Of a stretch of DNA of 64,000 bases, positions 1,579-16,380 are shown one piece after another. Within the stretch, counting starts at the first letter, position 1. Every line of letters begins with the position of its first letter. The translations under genes and the position numbers were made by a program. The DNA is from Flavobacteriales bacterium (GTDB lineage: Bacteria; Bacteroidota; Bacteroidia; Flavobacteriales_D; Parvicellaceae). The stretch lies in NCBI GenBank assembly GCA_025210295.1, contig JAOASC010000048.1, positions 186,001 to 250,000 on the forward strand, written 5' to 3'. Under the pieces are notes generated by a model, which saw only the letters and a program-made list of their open reading frames with translations, ran no database searches and was not told where the DNA came from.

Positions 1579-1932
1579 ATGAGTATAGGTAGAACAATAA
1601 AACAACTAAGGGAACTAAGAGATTACACACAAGCATATATGGCTAAAGAACTAGGGATAAGTGTTAGTGGATACGGTAAAATCGAGAGAGATGAAACTGA
1701 TATTACCTTATCTCGCTTACAACAAATAGCCAATGTATTAGAAACACAAATAGATTCTATTTTAGATTTTGAATCAAAAAATGTATTTAATCAATATTAT
1801 AATAAACAAGCTAACGCAATAGTTCAGAACTTACAGATTATAAATGATGAATCCATAAAAGACTACTTTAATGAATTAAAAAAAGAAATTAATGATTTGA
1901 AAAAAGGAATTAACAAATTAAATAATGAGTAA
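1579..1932 (+). CDS. XRE-family HTH transcriptional regulator
   Basis: A 117-residue protein with an N-terminal Cro/C1-type helix-turn-helix (residues ~6-60). The pattern IKQLRELRDYTQAYMAKELG...SGYGKIERDETDITLSRLQQIA is the canonical five-helix XRE fold. The C-terminal ~45 residues are predicted helical or coiled-coil, with repeated LKKEINDLKKGI heptads, and probably dimerise the protein. A TATCTTTG box (1546-1553), matching the Bacteroidota -7 consensus TAnnTTTG, lies 25 bp upstream of the ATG. The gene's last codons overlap the start of the secreted-protein gene at 1925 by 8 nt, so the two are probably co-transcribed and translationally coupled. Control of that surface protein, or autoregulation, is inference. 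Confidence 0.85.
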   Translation: MSIGRTIKQLRELRDYTQAYMAKELGISVSGYGKIERDETDITLSRLQQIANVLETQIDSILDFESKNVFNQYYNKQANAIVQNLQIINDESIKDYFNELKKEINDLKKGINKLNNE

Positions 1933-3796
1933 AACACTTGTCATATCTTTTGTTTATTATCTCCTTTATATCTCAACTTATAGTCAAACCACTTTTTATA
2001 AGGATATATATAAGGGAGGTGTTTCTGGAGGTGGTTTTACGGCTTATGGCACAGGAACTATATTTTATGAAATACCTGATAACTCCTCAATAAAGAAAGC
2101 TTTTTTATTATGTGCGAATTGGTTAACCGACACAGTTCAGCATTCCATTTACATAGATGGTTATGAAGTAATTTTAGATAGCAACAGAAGGGTTACGCAA
2201 GAATATCTATCAAACACCAATATTGGCAATAATTACTCGTCTGTTTATGTATCAGATATCACAAACATAATAAATATAAACAATGATAGCCTCGTTATAA
2301 ATTCTCCAGTAAATATAAACAACTCTTTCCAGTACTACCTAGATTTCTATGTGATTATTTTTTATGAAAACATATCATTTCCTCTGATAAGTGCATCTAT
2401 TGATGTTCTTGACAAGAATGTAGTTGGAATAATGAATAATAGCCATAATATTGAGTCTCCATTTTTAGCTAAACCCCTATCAGTTTCATTATTAACAGGT
2501 CATATGACAACATTTGATGACAGCACAGATGTCTATCTAAATGACAGCATATTTATTGGAAGAATAGGAGGACAAGAAGAAGACTGTTTATCAAGCGCTG
2601 GTGTATTTGGTAACTTCTATTATCAAAATGATACATTATATGGTTTAAAAGATGACACACCTGATAGTATAATGAATGGTTCAGATGTTTTATTTGATTT
2701 AAAATCATATAATATTGAATCAAATTTTTCATTAAAATATATTTATCAAGACTATGTGTCACCCACGCCAGAATCTACAACTAACCCTATATGGGCAACT
2801 TTTTTAACTTATTCAACCAAATGTGATACCTTACATAGCTACTCTAACATATCCGACACAACAATTTGCTTTGGAGAACCATTGGAATTAATAGTAGGAG
2901 GAGATAGTACTTATTTGTATTCATGGCGTTATAAAGGAAATATTGTTAGTACTGATTCTATACTTAATATTGCTCCTGAACAAAGTAGAATTTATAGTAT
3001 TTTAGTGTCTGATACATCCGGATGCAGTAAAACAGAAATAATCAATATCAAAGTAAAAGAGAATCCCAACCACTATAATAGTACGCAAGATGCAGTATGC
3101 CCTAATAATAATGGTGTCATTGTTATAGATAGTGTTCAAGGCATTGCACCTCCCTATCGCTATAATATAGACAATGGAACTTGGCAAACAGCACCAGTAT
3201 TTGCAAACCTTTCTTCAGGAAGTTATGATGTAGGTGTAATAGATACTAATGGTTGTATTTCAACTAATGTTATTAATATACAAGATAGTATTGATACTCA
3301 AGCAGACTTCGTTTTTCCAATCTATTCTACCAATTCACCTACAACAATAAATTTTGAAAACCAAAGCGAAAATGCGACTAATTATCAGTGGTATATAAAT
3401 GGCCTGTTAGTTACTACAGAAACAAACTTGTCTTACCTATTTGAAGAAGAAGGTGAATATGAAATATTTTTGATAGCCAGTAAAACAAATGGACTTTGTT
3501 CTGACACATTAGTAAAGAATTTTTCATTAGAAAACGATAATACTTTGATACTATCAAATATCTGGAAAGTTGACAATAAGTTACTTTTGATAAGTAACGG
3601 ATATGATAAATTAAGATTCCGTTTATTAAATACTTTAGGGCAAGTAGTCCTGTATAAAGAAAAATCATTAATCAACGGACAAAACACAATTATACAAGAA
3701 AGAAACTTAGCACGTGGAATTTATATTTATCAGATGGAAGTTGTAGACAAAAACGGAAAAACCGAAAGTTTTGAGGGAAAATTATTAAGGTTTTAA
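1925..3796 (+). CDS. T9SS-sorted secreted protein with PKD/SprB-like repeats
   Basis: A 623-residue exported protein. Residues 1-21 form a signal peptide ending in TYSQ. The first ~290 residues make a beta-rich domain resembling Bacteroidota adhesin heads. Next come two Ig/SprB-like repeats, with ICFGEPLELIVGG...Y.W near residue 315 and CPNNNGVIVIDSV...DTNGC near residue 395, then a PKD-like domain (FENQSENATNYQWYING...EGEYEI, ~455-530). The last ~80 residues are a type A T9SS sorting domain (LRFRLLNTLGQVVLYKE...LARGIYIYQM...GKLLRF), so outer-membrane export with anchoring or release is expected. No enzymatic motif is seen. It starts 8 nt before the end of the XRE gene, an unusual regulator-adhesin overlap. 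Confidence 0.85.
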   Translation: MSKTLVISFVYYLLYISTYSQTTFYKDIYKGGVSGGGFTAYGTGTIFYEIPDNSSIKKAFLLCANWLTDTVQHSIYIDGYEVILDSNRRVTQEYLSNTNIGNNYSSVYVSDITNIININNDSLVINSPVNINNSFQYYLDFYVIIFYENISFPLISASIDVLDKNVVGIMNNSHNIESPFLAKPLSVSLLTGHMTTFDDSTDVYLNDSIFIGRIGGQEEDCLSSAGVFGNFYYQNDTLYGLKDDTPDSIMNGSDVLFDLKSYNIESNFSLKYIYQDYVSPTPESTTNPIWATFLTYSTKCDTLHSYSNISDTTICFGEPLELIVGGDSTYLYSWRYKGNIVSTDSILNIAPEQSRIYSILVSDTSGCSKTEIINIKVKENPNHYNSTQDAVCPNNNGVIVIDSVQGIAPPYRYNIDNGTWQTAPVFANLSSGSYDVGVIDTNGCISTNVINIQDSIDTQADFVFPIYSTNSPTTINFENQSENATNYQWYINGLLVTTETNLSYLFEEEGEYEIFLIASKTNGLCSDTLVKNFSLENDNTLILSNIWKVDNKLLLISNGYDKLRFRLLNTLGQVVLYKEKSLINGQNTIIQERNLARGIYIYQMEVVDKNGKTESFEGKLLRF

Positions 3797-4183: not shown

Positions 4184-4342
4184 TTGCGTGGGACTGATAG
4201 CTTACCTGAAGTCGAGGTACTACCAATACCTTGTCACAAATAAGCATGCCCACGCAAATCGCGAGCATTAGACTTATTATTCTTATGACATTGAATTTGG
4301 TAGTTTTCGACTTTAAGAATAATAGCTAACGCAATACGTTAG
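4184..4342. repeat. Nested inverted-repeat structure (long imperfect hairpin)
   Basis: Several inverted repeats interlock here. TTGCGTGGG (4184-4192) is complementary to CCCACGCAA (4249-4257). GTCGAGGTACTACCA (4211-4225) is complementary, with mismatches, to TGGTAGTTTTCGAC (4299-4312), and the pairing continues inward through CTTGTCAC...TAAG and CTTATGACA. TATTATTCTTA (4275-4285) is perfectly complementary to TAAGAATAATA (4314-4324). CTAACG (4326-4331) and CGTTAG (4337-4342) form a small terminal hairpin. Some arms are mutually exclusive, so alternative foldings are possible. It could be a structured RNA, a MITE-like insertion or a recombination site; the sequence alone does not decide. Confidence 0.6.
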
Positions 4343-4509
4343 TATTATATATTATATTTTAATAGTACTTTTTCTTATATCATTTTTTCTTTCGAGGTTT
4401 CAACAAATATAACACTAAAATATTATAGTTAAGTATCATTATAGGATCTTGTTTTCTATCAAACACACTAAATTCTTTAATACACCCTTCATTTATTAAC
4501 CTATCAATC

Positions 4510-4557
4510 ACCTGACATAGACCTGAGCACGACCTGACAACTACCTGTGTCTACCTG
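4510..4557. repeat. Phased direct repeats, ACCTG x5
   Basis: ACCTG occurs at 4510, 4521, 4532, 4543 and 4553, giving steps of 11, 11, 11 and 10 bp, close to one helical turn. The array lies just beyond the stop codon of the minus-strand gene at 4583-5041. Such spacing is typical of iterons or cooperative protein-binding arrays. Which protein binds is unknown. Confidence 0.6.
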
Positions 4558-4582
4558 TGGAAAAATAAGGGGAGTTCTATTT

Positions 4583-5041
4583 TTAAACGTATACTTTTTT
4601 CCATTCTAATACACTATTTGAATATTCAATTAATTTGATAAAGCTAGATTCAGCAATAATAGAAGACCTTCCAGAGCCTTTATAAACTCCCAGTAATAAT
4701 TTACAATTCAAGTACATTCCAATACTAGCAGCAGTCCATGAGTTAAGTTGCACTCTTGGGTATGCTTCATATAACTCCATTGGAGTCATCAAGTTAATTG
4801 TTTCTCGACTCTTGGGGTCAAGTAAGACATTATTAATATCACTCAAATTACGAGAATAATTTAACAACCTAACAAAGCTCTTTTCTCTAATCATGCAAGG
4901 ACGATTTCGAGATTTAACCACGCCAACCAATAGTTGAGCTTGTAAAAACATAGCAATTTTAGCAGGAGTCCATCCCAGTAATAAGACTTGTGAATATTTC
5001 TCACACAAGAATTTAGGACACATTAAGTCAGTATATATCAT
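4583..5041 (-). CDS. Two-repeat protein, possible tandem HTH-like DNA-binding domains
   Basis: A 152-residue protein built from two ~70-residue copies of one unit. Copy 1 has LMCPKFLCEKYSQV.LLGWTPAKIAMFLQAQLLVGV...R..MIREKSFVRLLNYS. Copy 2 has LMTPMELYEAYPRVQLNSWTAASIGMYLNCKLLLGV...R..IIAESSFIKLIEYS. Each unit resembles the layout of an excisionase/MerR-like HTH (helix, WTxxxIxxxL helix, short wing with Arg, then ESSF helix), but the similarity is weak and this is inference. It lies inside the putative element between two repeat arrays, which would fit a DNA-binding directionality or copy-control factor. No membrane segment or catalytic motif is visible. Confidence 0.55.
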   Translation of the reverse strand: MIYTDLMCPKFLCEKYSQVLLLGWTPAKIAMFLQAQLLVGVVKSRNRPCMIREKSFVRLLNYSRNLSDINNVLLDPKSRETINLMTPMELYEAYPRVQLNSWTAASIGMYLNCKLLLGVYKGSGRSSIIAESSFIKLIEYSNSVLEWKKVYV

Positions 5042-5235
5042 TTTTGTTCGTTAAAAAGTTAAAAAAAGAATGGTGTAAGGAGGAAGTGACTACTCCACTA
5101 AATTATTAGTACTCAAATCACTTCTAAAAAGATACACAAACAACCTGAAAACACTGACAAACTTGCAACCTTTCTTAATTAACGATTCATTTTTAATCAT
5201 GAGCGGAAATTAACTTTCCCCTTAAATTCTCATCC

Positions 5236-5284
5236 TTCGCAAAATTTATGCACCCTTCGCAAAAAGATGTAGGTGTTCGCAAAA
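5236..5284. repeat. Phased direct repeats, TTCGCAAAA x3
   Basis: TTCGCAAAA occurs at 5236-5244, 5256-5264 and 5276-5284, exactly 20 bp apart (about two helical turns). It is 100 bp upstream of the ATG at 5384, in the 340-bp divergent region between 5041 and 5384. It is probably an operator or iteron array for the element's promoters. Confidence 0.65.
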
Positions 5285-5383
5285 GTGGCACACCCCTCGT
5301 TTTATAGTATGAATCAATATCAGAACTTGAATGAAAAAGTAAGGAAAGACCTCTCTTTTAAAACATTTAAAAATTAAACCGAT

Positions 5384-5710
5384 ATGTATATCAAAAAACA
5401 AAATTTCAATGAACTCATTGCAAGATGGATGAAAAGTGACCCCGATTTATGGTCAACACTAACTAAAGTAGAAATCAAAATTATACATCAGCGCATTACC
5501 AAAGAATATTCATTTGAGCAAATAGCTCAGGAAGTAAACTCAACAACAGAACTTGTCGAATCACTCTTTCCTATAATAATAGGGAAAATAGCTGAACATA
5601 TTAACCACGAGATAGCTGTGGAGCTCTACTTAGTTCACAAACAATTAGAAAATCGACATGTAGAGATAGGATTTGGACATACCTATATCCATAACATCTA
5701 CCTCAATTAA
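5384..5710 (+). CDS. Hypothetical protein with sigma-region-4-like HTH
   Basis: A 108-residue soluble protein. Residues ~25-60 (LTKVEIKIIHQRITKEYSFEQIAQEVNSTTELVESLF) read as a sigma70-region-4/LuxR-like helix-turn-helix: a conserved EIKII..RI opening, then SFEQIAxEVNST as positioning and recognition helices. The C-terminal part is helical (EHINHEIAVELYLVHKQLE). It is the first gene of the plus-strand run in the element and sits 100 bp behind the TTCGCAAAA array. A role in element gene regulation is inferred. No named family is claimed. Confidence 0.6.
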   Translation: MYIKKQNFNELIARWMKSDPDLWSTLTKVEIKIIHQRITKEYSFEQIAQEVNSTTELVESLFPIIIGKIAEHINHEIAVELYLVHKQLENRHVEIGFGHTYIHNIYLN

Positions 5711-5746
5711 TCTCCACTAATTATTAATCATTAAAAATAGATCATC

Positions 5747-5953
5747 ATGGAAAAGCTAAAAGGAAGCATATACATAACAGCAAAAGAAATTCAAATACTA
5801 AATGATTGTAGTCTAAGAACAGCTAAGACTGAACATAGACGAATAAGAGATAGCCTTGGAATTAAGCATGGTAAACTCACTATAAAACAATACATCAACT
5901 ATTGGGGGATAGACTATGATTTAGTCATTTTCAAACTAAATGATTACAGATAG
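5747..5953 (+). CDS. Small putative DNA-binding protein (68 aa)
   Basis: A 68-residue protein, MEKLKGSIYITAKEIQIL..., whose middle (YITAKEIQILNDCSLRTAKTEHRRIRDSLG) looks like a compact HTH with a basic recognition helix. The tail (KLTIKQYINYWGIDYDLVIFKLN) is aromatic. Short proteins of this pattern are frequent next to Bacteroidota mobile elements. It is 36 bp after the preceding gene and 24 bp before the GTGCAAA repeat array. Confidence 0.55.
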   Translation: MEKLKGSIYITAKEIQILNDCSLRTAKTEHRRIRDSLGIKHGKLTIKQYINYWGIDYDLVIFKLNDYR

Positions 5954-5977
5954 CACTCAATGATCTAATCAAAACAG

Positions 5978-6017
5978 GTGTAAAAAAGTGCAAAATGGTG
6001 CAAATGAGTGCAAGACG
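5978..6017. repeat. Phased direct repeats, GTGYAAA x4 with 10-bp period
   Basis: GTG(T/C)AA units begin at 5978, 5988, 5998 and 6008, an exact 10-bp period (GTGTAAAAAA, GTGCAAAATG, GTGCAAATGA, GTGCAAGACG). The array lies ~90 bp upstream of the small membrane-protein gene at 6107. Helically phased repeats of this sort are expected of iterons or an operator bound cooperatively. Confidence 0.65.
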
Positions 6018-6106
6018 GGGAAAAGTAGACAAAAAGTTTGTTTTTTATCCCTCAACTTTACATCAAGCAAGCGGAAAGACCGCAAGATCACTAAACAATT
6101 CAAATC

Positions 6107-6307
6107 ATGGAAGCATTACTAATTATCAATAGTTTTTTAGTCGCTATTTGTTTGTACTTCATCAAAGACTTTCACACCGAGTTTAAAGGAGTCGCAAAAA
6201 AAGTACAGGGGCTAAAAGAAAATATGGAAAGGTTGAGTGGCAAAGTTAACGTTATTGCCGAGCGCCTAAAAAACCATATTAAATCAGTTCGAAAAACAAA
6301 AAAGTAA
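6107..6307 (+). CDS. Small membrane-anchored coiled-coil protein (66 aa)
   Basis: A 66-residue protein. Residues ~3-20 (ALLIINSFLVAICLYFI) form one transmembrane helix. The rest (FKGVAKKVQGLKENMERLSGKVNVIAERLKNHIK) is a basic amphipathic coiled coil ending SVRKTKK. This is the layout of small phage or element accessory membrane proteins, but no family was recognised. One nucleotide separates its stop from the ATG of the LEA-like gene, so the two are an operon. Confidence 0.55.
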   Translation: MEALLIINSFLVAICLYFIKDFHTEFKGVAKKVQGLKENMERLSGKVNVIAERLKNHIKSVRKTKK

Positions 6308-6308
6308 A

Positions 6309-6821
6309 ATGAGTGTGTTTAAATACATATTAATCGGTACAGGAGCATTCTTGGGGCTAAGATACCTAAAAGGGATGAACCGTATAAGCAAGAAAGCAGT
6401 AATCGACATTACAGGCAAAGTGGATAAAGTGACCATAGAAGGAGTCGTGGTTATACTGAAGTATAACATCAAGAACCCCGCTCGAACCAGTATCAACCTA
6501 ACACCACCATTGATTAAAATTATACATCAAGGTCAAGGCAAAGAAAATATATTGGCGAGTTCATCTATGGCGCTTGTGGACATACCCGAAGAGACAAAAG
6601 ATCGCAAAGGAAGAATCAGAATTCCTCCGTTCAACGAAACAGGAGCAATCACCACTCGAATCTTAATTCCACACTTGAAAATGATAGGACTAGGTTCAGG
6701 ATTAATTGCTCGCTTAAAAGATCCAACTCAGAAAGTAAACTTTATGATTGAAACGAATGCTACCTTGTTTACAGCAATTGGGAGCTTTCCATACGATCAT
6801 CAAACAACAATAGCCCTATGA
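6309..6821 (+). CDS. LEA14/WHy-like beta-domain protein
   Basis: A 170-residue protein. An N-terminal hydrophobic segment (~4-20, FKYILIGTGAFLGLRYL) is a likely anchor. It is followed by a domain with the LEA14/WHy layout: VTIEGVVVILKYNIKNP, then ...ILASSSMALVDIPE..., then IPPFNETGAITTRILIPHL. Related LEA-like proteins occur in Bacteroidota mobile elements next to transglutaminase-like proteins, which matches the neighbour here. It overlaps the next gene by 4 nt (ATGA-type). The molecular function is unknown. Confidence 0.55.
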   Translation: MSVFKYILIGTGAFLGLRYLKGMNRISKKAVIDITGKVDKVTIEGVVVILKYNIKNPARTSINLTPPLIKIIHQGQGKENILASSSMALVDIPEETKDRKGRIRIPPFNETGAITTRILIPHLKMIGLGSGLIARLKDPTQKVNFMIETNATLFTAIGSFPYDHQTTIAL

Positions 6822-7072
6822 TAGCTACAGGTAAAAGAAAGATAAAAAGTGGAGCTGAGTATGACCGTTTTTTCCCGCGAGCCAAAGGAGAATATAAAAC
6901 AGTCAAGCAATCCGCATCGCTAGATGACACCATTGAGTTAATGCAAAAGGTAGTGCGAGAGACTTTAGCAGATACTCGAAAAATTGCGCATCATTTGCAA
7001 GCGGATACAGCTCTAAAAACCTGTCAGCAGATTTGGGCTTTTTGTTACCATCACATTCAATACGAAAAGTGA
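6818..7072 (+). pseudogene. Truncated transglutaminase-like protein (N-terminal remnant)
   Basis: An 84-residue product whose last ~45 residues (VVRETLADTRKIAHHLQADTALKTCQQIWAFCYHHIQYEK) match, from memory, the lead-in to a transglutaminase-like cysteine protease fold found in Bacteroidota elements. In full-length relatives this is followed by the catalytic Cys-His-Asp part. Here a TGA at 7070-7072 ends the protein just after the HHIQY motif, and the following 70 bp show no continuation in any frame that I recognise. The gene therefore lacks its active site. A small functional leftover cannot be excluded. It is coupled to the preceding gene through an ATGA overlap. Confidence 0.5.
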
Positions 7073-7145
7073 GCAATTAAAGCATAAATACTACAAAAAC
7101 CAATCTATTCTAGGGATTACTATTCGGTCACTTTATGAGATTGCA

Positions 7146-7406
7146 ATGAGTGAAGTATTTAATAATGATGTTAACCATTTCCTGCAATTAAACGATGTTG
7201 TAAAACAGGCGAATAGTTGGGGAGGGGGTAATACCCTAAGAACTGAATCAAATAAAATAATTAAGGCGTTTGATGCTACTGTTATTCAACCGAGTCTAAA
7301 TATGGATTTGGGGAACTCTCTTGTTGCAAATAAAAAGTTGATTGAAGTGAGCATGAAGTATGGGCAACAGATGGCTGAAAGTGTGTTTAACCTGAAAAAA
7401 ATATAA
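7146..7406 (+). CDS. Hypothetical protein (86 aa)
   Basis: An 86-residue soluble protein, MSEVFNNDVNHFLQLNDVV..., with a Gly-rich turn (NSWGGGNTLRTES) and helical remainder. No family was recognised. Its stop overlaps the start of the next small gene (TAATG), so they are a coupled pair just upstream of the recombinase. A toxin-antitoxin-like or accessory role would be speculation. Confidence 0.45.
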   Translation: MSEVFNNDVNHFLQLNDVVKQANSWGGGNTLRTESNKIIKAFDATVIQPSLNMDLGNSLVANKKLIEVSMKYGQQMAESVFNLKKI

Positions 7407-7606
7407 TGATGAAAAAGCCCAACAAAGATAGCATTCGAAAAGCAACAGAGCGTGTAATGAAGAGATTACCAATTGATAAATTACGTAAAATCAAAAAGTT
7501 TAAAAACATATCTGAACAAGATTATCTAAAGTTGATAAAAAATGCAGAAAAGTTTGCTTTATTAGTTTTAGCTCTGTATTCCGAAAGACAAAACGCAAGG
7601 TATTGA
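7406..7606 (+). CDS. Small basic hypothetical protein (66 aa)
   Basis: A 66-residue, strongly basic protein (MMKKPNKDSIRKATERVMKRLPIDKLRKIKKF...). It has an amphipathic helical C-terminus (YLKLIKNAEKFALLVLALYSERQNARY) and might bind nucleic acid. It is translationally coupled to 7146-7406. No family was recognised. Confidence 0.45.
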   Translation: MMKKPNKDSIRKATERVMKRLPIDKLRKIKKFKNISEQDYLKLIKNAEKFALLVLALYSERQNARY

Positions 7607-7722
7607 TTACCAACTAATTATAGCTATATTTGGTATGAATTTTGATTTTAGACAAAATAAAAAAAGATACATCAGAGGATAATTATTGAATATTTCTCTT
7701 GATGGTTTAAAGATAGAGAGAT

Positions 7723-9327
7723 ATGAAAGATTTAAAGATATTCCAACAATTTGCACCCCAATTAGAAGAAAAATTTCAACAAGGAAACAATGCTGTGATT
7801 TACACACGTGTTTCGTCAGCAGACCAAGAAGATAATACCAGTTTAGCTTCACAAAAAAAGTATTGCGATAATTTTGCCGAAAAGAAAGGGCTTAATGTTG
7901 TAGGCTACTTTGGTGGAACATACGAATCAGCCAAGACTGATGATAGAAAAGAGTTTGGTAAACTACTAAACTTTGTTAAGCGTTCTAAGAACATCAACTA
8001 TATTATAGTTTATTCTTATGAGCGCTTTTCTCGTTCTGGAATGAATGGTGCTCAAATAGCAGATGATTTATTAAAGAAATACGGCGTGATTACTTTAGCC
8101 GTTACCCAAGAGTTAGACCCTACTACTCCTGCTGGATCATTCCAACAAAAAATACTTTTTCTGTTTGGGCAAATGGATAACGAGTTGAGACGAGATAAAG
8201 TTGTTACGGGTATGAAAGAGTTACTTTTAAACGGTTTTTGGGTATGGGGTGCTCCTAAGGGGTATAAAGTCCTTAATAAAGGACTAAAGGCTTCAGAGCG
8301 ACAAATTGTTATCACTGAAGAAGGAAAGAAATTAAGAAAAGCATTTGAATGGAAAGCAAACCTTAACCTCTCTAATGTTGAAATTTCAAGGAGGCTAAAG
8401 AAAATGGGAGTGCATATCCCTGATAAAAGATTAAACGAACTATTTAAAAATCCTTTCTATTGCGGACTGATTACCAGTAAAATGATTCCTGGGCAAGTAG
8501 TCGAAGGCAAGCATGAAGCTTTAGTTTCTAAAAAGCTATTTCTAGCTGTACATGATATTAGACAAGAAAAAAGAATACATGGTTTTGTACATAATCAAGA
8601 TTTTGAAAATCTTCCACTTAAAGTATTTACTAAGTGTGCTAAATGTGAACGTTCTCTTTCTGGTTATTTAGTGAAGAAAAAGGGATTGTATTACTATAAA
8701 TGTAGTACAAAAGGGTGTAAGGTAAATAGAAGTGCTAAAGCAATGCACAAGCTCTTTAAAGAAGTTCTTAGCGTGCTTCATATAGAAAAGGAAGAGTTAG
8801 AGGTTGTTAAAATACAATTAGAAGAACAATTCCATAATTTTTTTGAATCACATATTAGTGAGCAAAAAGCATTAAAAGTAAATCTAACTAATATTAAAAA
8901 GAAAATTGATAAGATTGAAGAACGATTTGTTTTAGAGGAAATTGATAGGGATATGTACACTAAATTTAAAACAAAGTTTAGTAAGGAATATGTTGAAATT
9001 GAAAAGGAATTAGGTAAGACTTCTATAAATTCCTCGAACCTTAAAAAAGCGATAGATTTTGCTGTAGAATTATGCTCAAACCCATTGAAAATGTGGGAGA
9101 AAGCAAATTACCACACTAAACAAGCTTTTCAAAACCTAATCTTCCCTGATGGAATTAGCTATAATCGAGAATTAGACCAATATCGAACCACTAGAATAAA
9201 TTCTTTTTTTGCTTTAATCCCTGAATTAACAAGGGGTTTGAGAGGAAATAAAAAAGGGGAAATGACTAATGTTAATCAATTCCCCTGTTTGGTGGGCCCT
9301 GAAGGGCTCGAACCTTCGACCCCCTGA
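7723..9327 (+). CDS. Large serine recombinase / site-specific integrase
   Basis: A 534-residue protein with a resolvase-type catalytic domain. It has the motif YTRVSS with the likely nucleophile Ser31 and Arg29, then SYERFSRSG and QMDNELRRDKV typical of the active-site helix. A recombinase domain follows (~150-290), then a zinc ribbon (CAKCERSLSGYL...YYKCSTKGC, ~305-340) and a long coiled coil (~370-430), the normal large-serine-recombinase order. It is expected to catalyse integration and excision through a Ser-DNA intermediate. The last ~25 codons cross the tRNA terminator, and the final ones (GPEGLEPSTP) are read from the opposite strand of the tRNA, so the native C-terminus is probably altered or ends earlier. 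A TAAATTTT-like AT-rich stretch precedes the ATG. Confidence 0.9.
   Translation: MKDLKIFQQFAPQLEEKFQQGNNAVIYTRVSSADQEDNTSLASQKKYCDNFAEKKGLNVVGYFGGTYESAKTDDRKEFGKLLNFVKRSKNINYIIVYSYERFSRSGMNGAQIADDLLKKYGVITLAVTQELDPTTPAGSFQQKILFLFGQMDNELRRDKVVTGMKELLLNGFWVWGAPKGYKVLNKGLKASERQIVITEEGKKLRKAFEWKANLNLSNVEISRRLKKMGVHIPDKRLNELFKNPFYCGLITSKMIPGQVVEGKHEALVSKKLFLAVHDIRQEKRIHGFVHNQDFENLPLKVFTKCAKCERSLSGYLVKKKGLYYYKCSTKGCKVNRSAKAMHKLFKEVLSVLHIEKEELEVVKIQLEEQFHNFFESHISEQKALKVNLTNIKKKIDKIEERFVLEEIDRDMYTKFKTKFSKEYVEIEKELGKTSINSSNLKKAIDFAVELCSNPLKMWEKANYHTKQAFQNLIFPDGISYNRELDQYRTTRINSFFALIPELTRGLRGNKKGEMTNVNQFPCLVGPEGLEPSTP
9255..9286 (-). terminator. Rho-independent terminator of the CAU tRNA
   Basis: AGGGGAA (9255-9261) pairs with TTCCCCT (9280-9286). 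Read on the minus strand, the hairpin is followed by TTTTTTATTT. It lies 4 bp downstream of the tRNA 3' end and inside the 3' end of the recombinase reading frame. Confidence 0.8.
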
Positions 9328-9366
9328 TTATGAGTCAGGTGCTCTAACCAGCTGAGCTAAGGGCCC
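9290..9366 (-). tRNA. tRNA with CAU anticodon, probably tRNA-Ile2 (lysidine type)
   Basis: A 77-nt complete cloverleaf: acceptor GGGCCCT/AGGGCCC, D-arm GCTC...GAGC, anticodon arm CCTGA-CTCATAA-TCAGG, T-arm GAAGG-TTCGAGC-CCTTC, and an encoded CCA. The anticodon is CAU. Initiator features are absent, because the first acceptor pair is a normal G-C. The acceptor pairs C4-G69 and C5-G68 are those known to favour TilS recognition in tRNA-Ile(CAU), whereas elongator Met tRNAs usually differ there, so I favour Ile2 over Met. The recombinase gene overlaps its 3' half on the other strand. Confidence 0.93.
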
Positions 9367-11433: not shown

Positions 11434-12426
11434 TTACACTAAGTTCTTCGCTATCAAATACTCAGCTATTTGAACAGCATTTGTTGCTGCTCCTTTTCTT
11501 AAGTTATCTGCTACAATCCAAAGGTCCAAAGCGTTTTCTTGAGAGTTATCTTTTCGAATTCTTCCGACAAAAACACTGTCTTTATTTTGTGCATATAAGG
11601 GCATTGGATAAAGGTTCACATCTGGATTATCTTGAAGGACAACTCCAGGTGTTCCTGCAATCTTTTTTCGTACTTCTTGAATTTCAAATGGCGCTTTCAA
11701 GGTAACATTTACCGCTTCCGAATGCCCTCCTAAAACCGGTACCCTAACCACAGTTGCGGAAATACGAATCGAATCGTCCCCGTAGATCTTTCTTGTTTCA
11801 TCGACTAATTTCTGCTCTTCTGTAGTATAACCTGTTTCCAAAAAATCTCCCCCATGTGGGATACAATTCTTGTCTATTGGATAGGGATAAACCATTTTCC
11901 CTTTTACTTCATTACGCTCATTTTGTAATTGTTCTACGGCTTGCACTCCAGTTCCAGAAACCGACTGATAAGTAGCTATCACTAACCGATCTATTCCATA
12001 ATTTTCTTGTAGTGCCTTAAGTGCCAAAACCATTTGTATGGTCGAACAATTAGGGTTAGCAATAATTTTATCGTCTTCTCCTAACTCTTTTGCATTAATT
12101 TCTGGTACAACTAACTTTTTAGAAGCGTCCATTCTCCAAGCCGAAGAATTATCGATAACAGTCGTTCCTACCGATGCAAACTTGGGTGCCCATTCTTTAG
12201 AAACAGATCCACCTGCCGAAAAAATTGCAATATTAGGCTTTGATTCCAATGCTGTTTGTAAGCCAACTACCTCTAGTTCTTGTCCGTCCCAATCAATTTT
12301 CTTCCCAACATTTCTTTCAGAAGCTACAGGTATTAACGTTTCTATTTTGATGTTACGTTCTTTTAAAACCTCCAACATAACACCTCCAACCATTCCAGTT
12401 GCTCCTACAACAGCTATTTTCATCAC
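11434..12426 (-). CDS. asd: Aspartate-semialdehyde dehydrogenase
   Basis: A 330-residue enzyme that reduces aspartyl-phosphate to aspartate-semialdehyde with NADPH, feeding lysine/diaminopimelate, threonine and methionine synthesis. The N-terminal Rossmann motif is VVGATGMVGGVMLEVL. The catalytic Cys127 is in IANPNCSTIQ. The substrate-binding region includes VSGTGVQAVEQL and RVPVLGGHSEAVNV. Length is normal. Two adjacent ATGs begin the frame and the choice changes one residue. It is divergent from the PPTase gene at 12528. Confidence 0.96.
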   Translation of the reverse strand: MMKIAVVGATGMVGGVMLEVLKERNIKIETLIPVASERNVGKKIDWDGQELEVVGLQTALESKPNIAIFSAGGSVSKEWAPKFASVGTTVIDNSSAWRMDASKKLVVPEINAKELGEDDKIIANPNCSTIQMVLALKALQENYGIDRLVIATYQSVSGTGVQAVEQLQNERNEVKGKMVYPYPIDKNCIPHGGDFLETGYTTEEQKLVDETRKIYGDDSIRISATVVRVPVLGGHSEAVNVTLKAPFEIQEVRKKIAGTPGVVLQDNPDVNLYPMPLYAQNKDSVFVGRIRKDNSQENALDLWIVADNLRKGAATNAVQIAEYLIAKNLV

Positions 12427-12527
12427 TTATATTATTAATTATAGTACACAAAGATAGCGGATTCAATAGAAATAGTTCATTTTATTTTACTTAAAAATAA
12501 CTAGCTTTGCGTTCTCTTATTTTTTGA

Positions 12528-13130
12528 ATGCCATTAATTAAAACCATAGCCAATTCCATTTTTTGTTGGAAAAATGAAGAATCACCTACTGAGTTACTAA
12601 AACAACTCAACAATCAGGCCATACATCAAAATAAAATTCAAACATTTAAGTCTGAAGAGCGCATCAAACAGTATTTAACCAACCGAATATTAGTCCAAAA
12701 TATTATAGGGGACTACGAGATAAAAAAAGGAAAGAACAACAAACCCTACCTCGATTTGGAAAACACCGAAATCTCTTTTTCTCACAATAAAGCTTATACC
12801 ATATTAATGGTCAGCAACACTGCTTGTGGTGTCGATGTTCAAGCTCCTACTGAAAAGGTACTAAGAGTAAAAAGTAAGTTTATTAATGCTAATGATTTTT
12901 GCTACAAAAGTGAAGACATTCAACTGTTATCAAAAGTATGGTCATGCAAAGAAGCTGCTTTTAAACAATTTGGGACTCATGAAATTTACTTAAAATCTCA
13001 TATTAATGTTATCCAACAAACTAAAGATGATATTTTTGAAGCCCTTGTCACTATCGACAACATTCCTTACCAAACCTTCTTAAAGCAGGTTGAAATCGAA
13101 AATAATTACTTACTTTATACCATTAATTGA
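12528..13130 (+). CDS. 4'-phosphopantetheinyl transferase superfamily protein
   Basis: A 200-residue protein of the Sfp/AcpT superfamily, which transfers phosphopantetheine from CoA to a carrier-protein serine. The two hallmark metal/CoA motifs are present: CGVDVQ (near residue 103) and WSCKEAAFKQFG (near residue 143). Upstream FSHNKAYTILMVS matches the usual strand with SHS-like Asn substitution. It is co-oriented and nearly contiguous with the GGGP synthase gene, which suggests an operon in lipid metabolism. The target carrier protein is unknown. Confidence 0.88.
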   Translation: MPLIKTIANSIFCWKNEESPTELLKQLNNQAIHQNKIQTFKSEERIKQYLTNRILVQNIIGDYEIKKGKNNKPYLDLENTEISFSHNKAYTILMVSNTACGVDVQAPTEKVLRVKSKFINANDFCYKSEDIQLLSKVWSCKEAAFKQFGTHEIYLKSHINVIQQTKDDIFEALVTIDNIPYQTFLKQVEIENNYLLYTIN

Positions 13131-13138
13131 AAAGTAAA

Positions 13139-13852
13139 ATGTCAATTTTAGCAGAAATAAAGGACAAAATCGTTGAACAAAAAAAATTATTGGGTATTTT
13201 AATCGATCCTGACAAATACACCCATGTTCAAGAAATAGAAACGACAGCTTTGGCATTAAAAAAAATAAATCCTGATTATATTTTTGTCGGAGGGAGCCTT
13301 ATCAACAATGGTTTATTTGAGCAAACAGTAAGTACTTTAAAAAAGCAATTGGATATTCCCATTATTCTTTTCCCTGGGAACAACCAACAAATTAGTACAG
13401 ATGCTGATGGAATCTTATTACTGTCGTTAATATCTGGTCGAAATGCTGATCTTCTAATTGGACAACATGTTAATACTGCTTTTCAACTCCAGCAAAGTCA
13501 ATTAGAAATCATGCCAACAGGATACTTATTGATCAATTGTGGTGCTCCTACAGCTGCACAATACATGAGTAATACATCTCCTATACCATACAATAAGCAT
13601 AGCATAGCTGCTGCCACTGCTTTAGCAGGAGAACAACTAGGTTTATCGCTTTTTTATTTAGATGGAGGATCTGGAGCAGAGCAACCTGTATCGAGCAAAA
13701 TGATTCAAACGGTTAAAGCAACTTTATCTTCGCCATTAATTGTTGGAGGCGGCATCAAAACAAAAGCACAACTAACAACCGCATGGGAAGCAGGAGCTGA
13801 TTTGGTAATTATTGGAACAGCCTTTGAAAACAATCCTGATTTATTTGATTAA
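13139..13852 (+). CDS. Geranylgeranylglyceryl phosphate synthase family protein (PcrB-like)
   Basis: A ~237-residue TIM-barrel prenyltransferase of the GGGPS/PcrB family, which couples a polyprenyl diphosphate to glycerol-1-phosphate. Conserved elements are LIDPDKY near the N-terminus, YIFVGGSLIN, PIILFPGNNQQ, the YLDGGSGAE phosphate loop, LIVGGGIKT and ADLVIIGTAFE. Bacteroidota encode a dedicated group of this family, so the substrate chain length is not certain. I start at the ATG at 13139. The frame could begin at a TTG at 13127 overlapping the upstream stop, but the ATG gives the normal N-terminus (MSILAEI). Confidence 0.9.
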   Translation: MSILAEIKDKIVEQKKLLGILIDPDKYTHVQEIETTALALKKINPDYIFVGGSLINNGLFEQTVSTLKKQLDIPIILFPGNNQQISTDADGILLLSLISGRNADLLIGQHVNTAFQLQQSQLEIMPTGYLLINCGAPTAAQYMSNTSPIPYNKHSIAAATALAGEQLGLSLFYLDGGSGAEQPVSSKMIQTVKATLSSPLIVGGGIKTKAQLTTAWEAGADLVIIGTAFENNPDLFD

Positions 13853-13922
13853 TTCCTTAAAATAACTGACAAGAATGACACCCCTTATCTTGATTAGCTG
13901 ACAGAATGACCTCATACAAGCT

Positions 13923-14528
13923 ATGGCAAAAAAATTGATTAAACGAAATTTAGAAAAATTCTTATCGAAAATGAGTACAAAAGAGACGAAACAAGAGATA
14001 GAGGAGCAAGAGGTAAAAAACGAAGCTCAAACAGAAGAAAATATTGAAAACACTGAAGATTCATCTACTAATGAAACTTCAGCAATAGAAAAATTAGAAG
14101 CCGAGAAGAAAGAACTGAATGATAAATTCTTACGCTTATTCTCTGACTTTGACAACTTTAGAAAACGAAGCGCTAAAGAAAAGCTAGAAATCACGAAAAC
14201 TGCTAGTGCAGGAGTGATTAAAGATTTATTGTCTGTTGTTGATGATTTTGATAGAGCGATTGAAAATAATGAAAAATCTGAGGATATAGACGCTATCAAA
14301 GAAGGTTTTTCATTGATTCACAATAAATTTTATAACATCTTAAAGAATAAAGGACTTGCGGAAGTAGAAGCTAAAGGAGAAACTTTTGATGTTGATAAAC
14401 ATGAGGCTATTACTCAGATTCCTGCTCCAACAGAAGATCAGAAAGGGAAAGTAGTAGATGTGATTGAAAAAGGATATGCATTAAACGAAACGATTATTCG
14501 TTTTCCAAAGGTGATTGTAGGACAATAA
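13923..14528 (+). CDS. grpE: GrpE nucleotide exchange factor
   Basis: A 201-residue protein. It has an acidic, Glu-rich N-terminus, a long coiled-coil helix (KLEAEKKELNDKFLRLFSDFDNFRKRS), a four-helix dimerisation part, and the GrpE C-terminal beta domain ending IIRFPKVIVGQ, which docks to DnaK's nucleotide-binding domain. It releases ADP from DnaK. An internal ATG at 13971 (MSTKETKQ) would remove a basic 16-residue extension and may be the true start. No promoter box decides between them. It is 25 bp upstream of dnaJ. Confidence 0.95.
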   Translation: MAKKLIKRNLEKFLSKMSTKETKQEIEEQEVKNEAQTEENIENTEDSSTNETSAIEKLEAEKKELNDKFLRLFSDFDNFRKRSAKEKLEITKTASAGVIKDLLSVVDDFDRAIENNEKSEDIDAIKEGFSLIHNKFYNILKNKGLAEVEAKGETFDVDKHEAITQIPAPTEDQKGKVVDVIEKGYALNETIIRFPKVIVGQ

Positions 14529-15945: not shown

Positions 15946-16380
15946 ATGAAAATTGCTATTGGAAGTGACCATGCAGGCTTTGAACTAAAAGCCATCATCA
16001 CCCAACACTTAATCGAAAACAGAGGCTATGAAGTAGAAGATTTTGGTTGTCACTCTGAGGAGAGTATGGATTACCCAGATTCGGCGCACCCTGTTTGTGA
16101 AAGTATCGAAAAGAAAGAAAGTCAACTAGGGATCTTGATTTGTGGAAGTGGAAATGGTATTGCTATGACTGCTAATAAACATCAAAACATTAGAGCAGGA
16201 TTAAGCTGGACCCCAGAAATTGCTGAGCTAGCTCGTCAACACAACGATGCGAACATTCTAGTTTTACCAGCACGCTTTATTAGTCAAGAATTAGCACTAG
16301 AAATCGTAGAACGTTTTTTTAATGCTGAATTCGAGGGAGGAAGACACCAAAGAAGAGTCGACAAAATAGCTTGTTGCTAG
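15946..16380 (+). CDS. rpiB: Ribose-5-phosphate isomerase B
   Basis: A 144-residue RpiB/LacAB-fold enzyme that interconverts ribose-5-phosphate and ribulose-5-phosphate. Seen: the N-terminal MKIAIGSDHAGFELK, a DYPDSAHPVCE segment, the catalytic Cys region GILICGSGNGIAMTANK, and the phosphate-binding Arg near the C-terminus (GGRHQRRVDKI). Length is typical. It is the last gene of the grpE-dnaJ run before the terminator at 16402. Confidence 0.95.
   Translation: MKIAIGSDHAGFELKAIITQHLIENRGYEVEDFGCHSEESMDYPDSAHPVCESIEKKESQLGILICGSGNGIAMTANKHQNIRAGLSWTPEIAELARQHNDANILVLPARFISQELALEIVERFFNAEFEGGRHQRRVDKIACC

Follow-up and report, generated by a model that had tools for sequence, protein, structure and literature searches.

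Positions 4510 to 9366 of the window, i.e., the whole stretch of 64,000 nucleotides that was analyzed, hold three direct-repeat arrays (S1, S2, and S3) and the genes of three HTH-like proteins, followed by operon genes, a recombinase gene, and a tRNA gene. From left to right, the features are:

4510–4557, minus strand: array S1, reading CAGGT leftwards, directly 3′ of the leftward gene at 4583
4583–5041, minus strand: gene for a 152-aa protein of family A with two tandem winged-HTH (wHTH) domains, split into two genes in some relatives (from the ORF and alignment)
5236–5304, plus strand: array S2, three TTCGCAAAA copies at 20-bp steps followed by a weak fourth unit, ahead of the gene at 5384
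5384–5710, plus strand: gene for a 108-aa HTH protein of family C, weakly of the sigma-70 region 4/LuxR type; family found in 33 loci
5747–5953, plus strand: gene for a 68-aa protein of family B, a small HTH-like regulator; family found in 36 loci
5978–6037, plus strand: array S3, four GTGYAA and two weaker units in exact 10-bp steps, ahead of the structural operon
6037–6061, plus strand: presumed structural-operon core promoter, with TTTG at about 6037 and ACTTTA at 6055; placed by comparison and weaker than the cores of relatives
6107–6307, plus strand: gene D, first of the structural operon, 66 aa, 57% identical to its counterpart in locus L008, with an N-terminus of membrane type by eye
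6309–6821, plus strand: gene E, second of the operon, 170 aa, 41% identical to its L008 counterpart; the HMM of E matches 105 loci
6818–7072, plus strand: truncated transglutaminase-like (TG-like) gene, the first ~83 of ~600 codons
7050–7406, plus strand: 3′ part of a patatin-like gene, from residue ~272 through the last, fused by internal deletion
7406–7606, plus strand: 66-aa gene, conserved beside the recombinase
7723–9327, plus strand: large serine recombinase gene (Pfam Resolvase 2.4e-22, Recombinase 3.9e-9; phrog_95 integrase 3.8e-64), whose 3′ end enters tRNA-Met
9290–9366, minus strand: tRNA-Met, with the right boundary of the element at the tRNA 3′ end (9290/9291)

We take the product of gene E to be LEA-2-like, and the ~600-aa protein is presumably transglutaminase-like, as named here. 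The patatin-like assignment comes from an intact relative of the gene (Pfam Patatin, 2.8e-21). At the fusion, TG-like residues 1–83 (to 7069) abut patatin-like residues 272 onward (from 7050); the genes that lie between these parts are missing here, and the element has thus undergone an internal deletion. The left regulators, the first two operon genes, the 66-aa gene, and the recombinase gene were retained.

The right boundary is fixed by a break in homology at the 3′ end of tRNA-Met, as similarity to four other genomes of the genus starts at 9291–9292 in all four. The recombinase gene occupies the element end adjoining the chromosomal target, as is characteristic of a serine-recombinase provirus, and its 3′ end likewise overlaps a tRNA gene in six right arms of relatives (Leu, His, Gln, His, Leu, and Met in L151, L152, L153, L155, L156, and L157, respectively; overlap coordinates converted by hand). 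For the left boundary, no convincing repeat common to the left flank and the tRNA side was found, and the left flank had no similarity to the four relatives. A 12-mer in L007/L042 was rejected as an end repeat, as it falls within a neighboring gene. Near the left end of the element, two strong hairpins lie next to each other at 4184–4258 and 4267–4345 (z −4.2/−4.0 by strand and −3.7), neither with an Rfam match. Further left, at 1579–3796, an HTH_3 regulator gene precedes a gene whose 623-aa product is of repeat type and, by eye, has a sorting-like tail at its C-terminus; these genes may be cargo to the left of the element. Directly left of the S1 array, L006 (~11970–14239) and L008 (1330–3074) carry an HsdM-like restriction-modification methylase gene (named by eye) and a small HTH control-type gene; in L007, S1 has other left neighbors, named by eye as a Fur-like gene and genes for efflux.

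S1 comprises five copies of ACCTG starting at 4510, 4521, 4532, 4543, and 4553 (spacing 11/11/11/10 bp), and S2 comprises TTCGCAAAA at 5236, 5256, and 5276, the sole three copies on this strand within the 64 kb, with a weak fourth unit, CTCGTTTTA, in phase at 5296. Both arrays are present as an earlier note, made from the window alone, had described them. The same note had listed four GTGYAAA copies at 10 bp for S3. Exact copies start at 5978, 5988, and 5998, and the fourth unit, at 6008, reads GTGCAAG, so the count of four applies to GTGYAA; two weaker units, GGGAAAA at 6018 and GACAAAA at 6028, still keep the 10-bp phase. Such phasing had been called uncommon by chance, and comparable array types were indeed obtained in none of 30 order-3 Markov simulations of 64 kb and in none of 3000 simulated 1.6-kb stretches. 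Per-spacer shuffle tests in the window gave p = 0.005 (period 11), 0.007 (period 20), and 0.002 (period 10), with a floor of 0.0025 (400 shuffles). As the arrays had been noticed before testing, these p-values alone are optimistic, and the independent evidence is the phasing in relatives. An Rfam scan of the arrays returned no match, the tRNA alone passing gathering; a weak SNORD46 match on the strand opposite S3 (E 0.16) was far below the Rfam gathering threshold. The arrays are a non-random, functionally suggestive feature of a decayed provirus.

Of 39 genomes of the family, three contain homologs of the 5384 product, one of these being a second locus in the genome of the window. This full-length relative (L007, L153) lies on the same contig (G000:C48, ~300000–320100), about 120 kb away. 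L006, L007, and L008 hold a longer gene cluster that opens with the same small genes; by our estimate, S1 and the recombinase lie ~18–20 kb apart in intact elements. One intact element (L074) belongs to a named strain, Lishizhenia tianjinensis. Their most conserved protein, of 235 aa, is encoded by 27 of the 399 genomes from the order and gave 134 matches in one scan of GTDB species contigs; the titles of the best 80 of these 134 mostly name Bacteroidetes/Bacteroidota or subgroups, and one names another group. In IMG/VR (2.9 million contigs), two loci with the protein were found. It had no match in 50,697 phage records and none in Pfam or PHROGs. Single-sequence queries with the 5384, 6309, and 235-aa products found no close relatives in viral contigs, and tblastn against plasmids and phages yielded no useful relative of the 5384 or 6309 product. 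Two Persicobacter records carry a distant relative of the 235-aa protein. Hence we are dealing with a virus group that is present in many Bacteroidota genomes, yet nearly absent from the viral collections searched.

The predicted structure of the 235-aa protein (pLDDT 72) best matched the Sulfolobus polyhedral virus 1 capsid protein (Foldseek 1.1e-4; Z 9.2, rmsd 3.6 over 151 residues). Capsid proteins head the matches, which also include those of P23-77, HCIV-1, and PRD1, as well as a non-viral jelly-roll enzyme. From this model we predict a single-jelly-roll major capsid protein; the likeness to the Sulfolobus virus is one of fold, whereas identity is 8–9% and that virus infects archaea. Other proteins link the elements to SSIP-1, the Salisaeta icosahedral phage. 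In seven right arms, the AAA protein, whose gene is deleted from the remnant in the window, matches the SSIP-1 ATPase gp40 (tblastn, E 6e-13 to 6e-5), the TG-like protein matches gp34 (tblastn, E 4e-9), and a large methylase protein is found in both, which in an intact element is a 1724-aa protein with RadC, methylase, and strawberry-notch helicase domains. The 235-aa protein itself had no sequence match to SSIP-1 by tblastn. SSIP-1 differs in its size of 43.8 kb, in its annotated regulators, and in its remaining genes, which are hardly alike by tblastn, while intact elements span ~18–20 kb between S1 and the recombinase and have a serine recombinase at tRNA genes. SSIP-1 is described in PMC6356626 as a membrane-containing phage with two types of capsid protein. 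We regard the elements as SSIP-1-related proviruses. SSIP-1 (L161) also carries tandem arrays of its own, with 11/23-bp and 12/23-bp spacing, inside an annotated ORF (16051–16243).

Phased arrays also characterize the relatives. For the regulatory spacers of 16 nonredundant relatives (window excluded), pooled autocorrelation gave z-values of 7.7 at lag 10, 4.1 at lag 11, 4.2 at lag 20, 2.8 at lag 21, and 2.3 at lag 30, with a shoulder of 3.8 at lag 9, and none above 1.5 at lags 12–19 or 22–29. Matches of G/C alone also peaked at 10 and 20–21, and the rhythm is therefore not merely A-tract phasing. The 133 control spacers from elsewhere in the loci had a 3-base rhythm and no 10/20 peak. When each of 60 spacers from 17 elements (the window element among them) was tested alone, 39 of the 300 tests made at periods 10, 11, 20, 21, and 22 gave p < 0.01 (17, 6, 12, 2, and 2 spacers, respectively), compared to six of 840 tests at 14 other periods, at most one each. 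With the window included, significant spacers made up 7 of 14 at the S1 position (p ≤ 0.01 at 10 or 11), 6 of 14 at S2, and 7 of 11 at S3 (10 or 20 bp); the other 7, 8, and 4 had no such signal. The near-duplicates L041, L042, L043, and L045 were left out of all nonredundant tests (autocorrelation, controls, per-spacer tests, second clade). The unit sequences of the arrays differ from element to element. Loss of phasing or repeats in homologous elements had been named as the result that would count against the arrays; the phase is retained in the homologs, and it is the repeat sequence that has changed.

A second clade comprises 42 dereplicated loci in which A, B, and C are not recognizable (four of 46 loci lacking these genes were removed as near-duplicates; L057, L058, and L094 were excluded by hand). 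Its signal was stronger than that of the first set, with z-values of 12.1 at lag 10 and 6.5 at lag 20. Among 100-bp windows upstream of gene E, 32 were significant at period 10 and four at period 11, compared to two in all at periods 8, 9, 12, 13, 14, and 16. The period-10 windows cluster by position, 24 of the 32 in two adjacent 120-bp bins ~1.2–1.4 kb upstream of E and five in the bin from −360. These places precede the genes C′ (34 of 42 loci) and D′ (37 of 42) and come after small B′-family genes (38 of 42).

The D′, C′, and D promoters were aligned on a TTTG ahead of the start codon (anchored in 18 of 37, 30 of 37, and 11 of 12 cases, respectively). They share a common core from about −35 to +10, in which the anchor motif itself inflates conservation at −6 to +6. 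L061, L062, L064, L066, and L098 are not part of this set, L039 was lost from the D set for length, and the 11 D promoters include L042 and L045, which are close to L007 and L047. The stretch 40–130 bp before the core shows little conservation from element to element (mostly 0.22–0.46 bits per column; one D bin, 0.65). Within an element, most of it matches itself at lag 10 in 0.39–0.59 of positions, compared to 0.20–0.33 at lag 7; the lag-10 match is lower for D′ beyond −90 (0.27–0.29) and at −50 to −35 (0.34), and for D beyond −90 (0.34–0.35). Ahead of C′, L127 and L117 have about 12 units of 10 bp (by eye). The arrays stop about −36 from TTTG, short of the core. S1 points leftwards, and this geometry derives from the D′, C′, and D promoters.

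The position of the arrays at the upstream edge of conserved cores leads us to prefer operators over the iterons and partition sites that the earlier note had proposed alongside them. Plasmid iterons and parC sites are likewise tandem direct repeats in helical register, and parC has a similar geometry with direct repeats of 10–11 bp. The arrays described here differ in being linked to promoters, with neither initiator nor partition proteins. It is very unlikely that they are iterons forming the replication origin of the excised element: the 20-bp-spaced TTCGCAAAA looks iteron-like by eye and the intact element encodes the RadC–methylase–helicase protein and an AAA protein, but arrays recur at several promoters per element, a unit of 10–11 bp would be short for an iteron, and no replication initiator was found among the 10 proteins of the region. 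A centromere-like role of the ParR/parC type, for which the shared geometry speaks, appears extremely unlikely, since the arrays sit at promoters, the same 10 proteins gave no match to ParA, ParM, ParR, or TubZ, and an integrated provirus has no need of partition. We consider it likely that the region forms the left, regulatory end of a provirus that is integrated, carries an internal deletion, and belongs to the SSIP-1-related group of tailless icosahedral viruses, with the arrays as upstream operators.

The proteins encoded beside the arrays are of a kind that could bind them. The products of 4583, 5384, and 5747 had been named as HTH-like candidate binders, and all three belong to HTH-like families. 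The AF2 model of the 4583 product (pLDDT 88.8) has two wHTH domains and resembles BldC (6amk_B; TMt 0.77, prob 0.82, rmsd 2.0), albeit at an E-value of 0.68. Its likeness to Pukovnik Xis, RdfS, and lambda Xis is looser (Z of at most 4.6); the family A profile had no match among PDB sequences. The family C profile weakly matched the HTH regions of VraR (E 0.0011) and RpoE (E 0.013) in the PDB. Family B and the B′ proteins of the second clade match by profile (probability 72, E 3.5e-5), and among B′ proteins one matched DUF4248 (33.2 bits) and one of seven tested matched MerR_1 (24.8 bits), both above gathering. C′ had no Pfam match of note. Families A and C were not found in the 42-element set, though arrays are present there, and no single binder therefore fits all arrays by homology.

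In the second clade, similarity of the units at the C′ promoter tracks similarity of C′ (beta 0.54, p 0.001) and of B1 (0.52, p 0.001), not of gene E. Units at the D′ promoter track C′ (0.40, p 0.001) more closely than B2 (0.12, p 0.086), whose gene is nearer. With B1 added, the C′ effect on the D′ array drops to 0.23 (p 0.024), and after dereplication p is 0.12–0.17; an initial run on the D′ array with the four proteins together had n = 5, and the filters were widened for a second one. The off-period control correlates with B1 as well, so that linkage accounts for part. These correlations are suggestive only and give a hint that C′-type proteins may recognize the arrays. A reading of the units as an immunity code was weakened by L136 and L141, which belong to the same genome and share a unit.

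A close known parallel in arrangement is BldC of Streptomyces, a MerR-like wHTH protein without coiled coil, which binds direct repeats as head-to-tail multimers (PMC5859096). Here, too, small wHTH proteins go together with head-to-tail repeats of about one turn at promoters and with a variable number of units. Repeats of the ~9–10-bp kind are present, and small MerR-like wHTH proteins are encoded beside them, with weak scores (family A by fold; B′ by MerR_1 in one of seven). In contrast to BldC sites, the unit varies by element, the period may be 10, 11, or 20 bp, and arrays reach about 12 units (L127/L117); the BldC consensus AATTxxxx(C) is absent, the units of the window being ACCTG.., TTCGCAAAA.., and GTGCAAA...

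Lambda Xis and RdfS share with the 4583 product its predicted wHTH fold and are known to form cooperative DNA filaments. They serve tyrosine recombinases at att sites, whereas the elements have a serine recombinase and promoter-linked arrays. Excisionase-like proteins could nevertheless use the arrays to steer the serine recombinase, with secondary effects on promoters. Family A does resemble wHTH proteins of the Xis/RdfS type, and RdfS, an oligomerizing wHTH protein, binds both attP and promoters according to PMC11963761; however, in the window element 3–5 kb separate the arrays from the end with the recombinase, and similar arrays precede structural operons, which makes this role highly improbable.

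Taken as operators, the arrays are probably cooperative activator sites of a viral regulatory cascade. Each would consist of head-to-tail sites one (10–11 bp) or two (20 bp) helical turns apart and would end just ahead of the core promoter of the next transcription unit. The small HTH proteins encoded beside them would line up next to each other along a single face of the double helix, in the manner of BldC and lambda Xis, and would most likely activate the adjoining promoter. The units would fire in order, i.e., the early regulators and then the structural operon from 6107, with S1 serving the genes to its left. Of the earlier proposal of three cooperative binding arrays in one element, the single element and arrays of a protein-binding type are borne out, and binding to them may be cooperative. 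We favor activation because the arrays end before the core. An unlikely alternative is silencing, in which the same HTH proteins would coat the arrays during lysogeny and hold the promoters of the virus closed until it is induced. As an integrated element, it should have silent late genes; the array positions would also fit a spreading filament, and PMC5859096 reports BldC protection from about −60 to −10 of one promoter and discusses repression of another. Against such silencing, the arrays end upstream of the core, about −36 from TTTG, and leave it uncovered, and no classical repressor was identified in the block. The copy in the window may still be functional. Its own S3 promoter core is imperfect, a point against the preferred reading.

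The repeat pattern of a single element thereby extends to a family-wide rule, by which helical phase is kept and sequence is changed. Such a rule would show in what way specificity shifts jointly in small winged-helix proteins and the sites they bind. An open-access literature search returned no description of these elements, of the arrays, or of phase kept with sequence free. Going further, the elements might represent an entire group of largely uncatalogued SSIP-1-like proviruses of Bacteroidota whose operons are controlled by 10-bp-phased operator arrays, in which phase is conserved and the unit is free to co-change with its binder, a rapidly re-specified switch, and the window element, with regulators and recombinase intact and capsid genes missing, could be a satellite-like deletion derivative; we put this forward tentatively, as a possibility on the doubtful side. 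Finally, L048, L049, L051, L052, and L053 each contain two to three paralogous family-B genes, some with a phased array between them.
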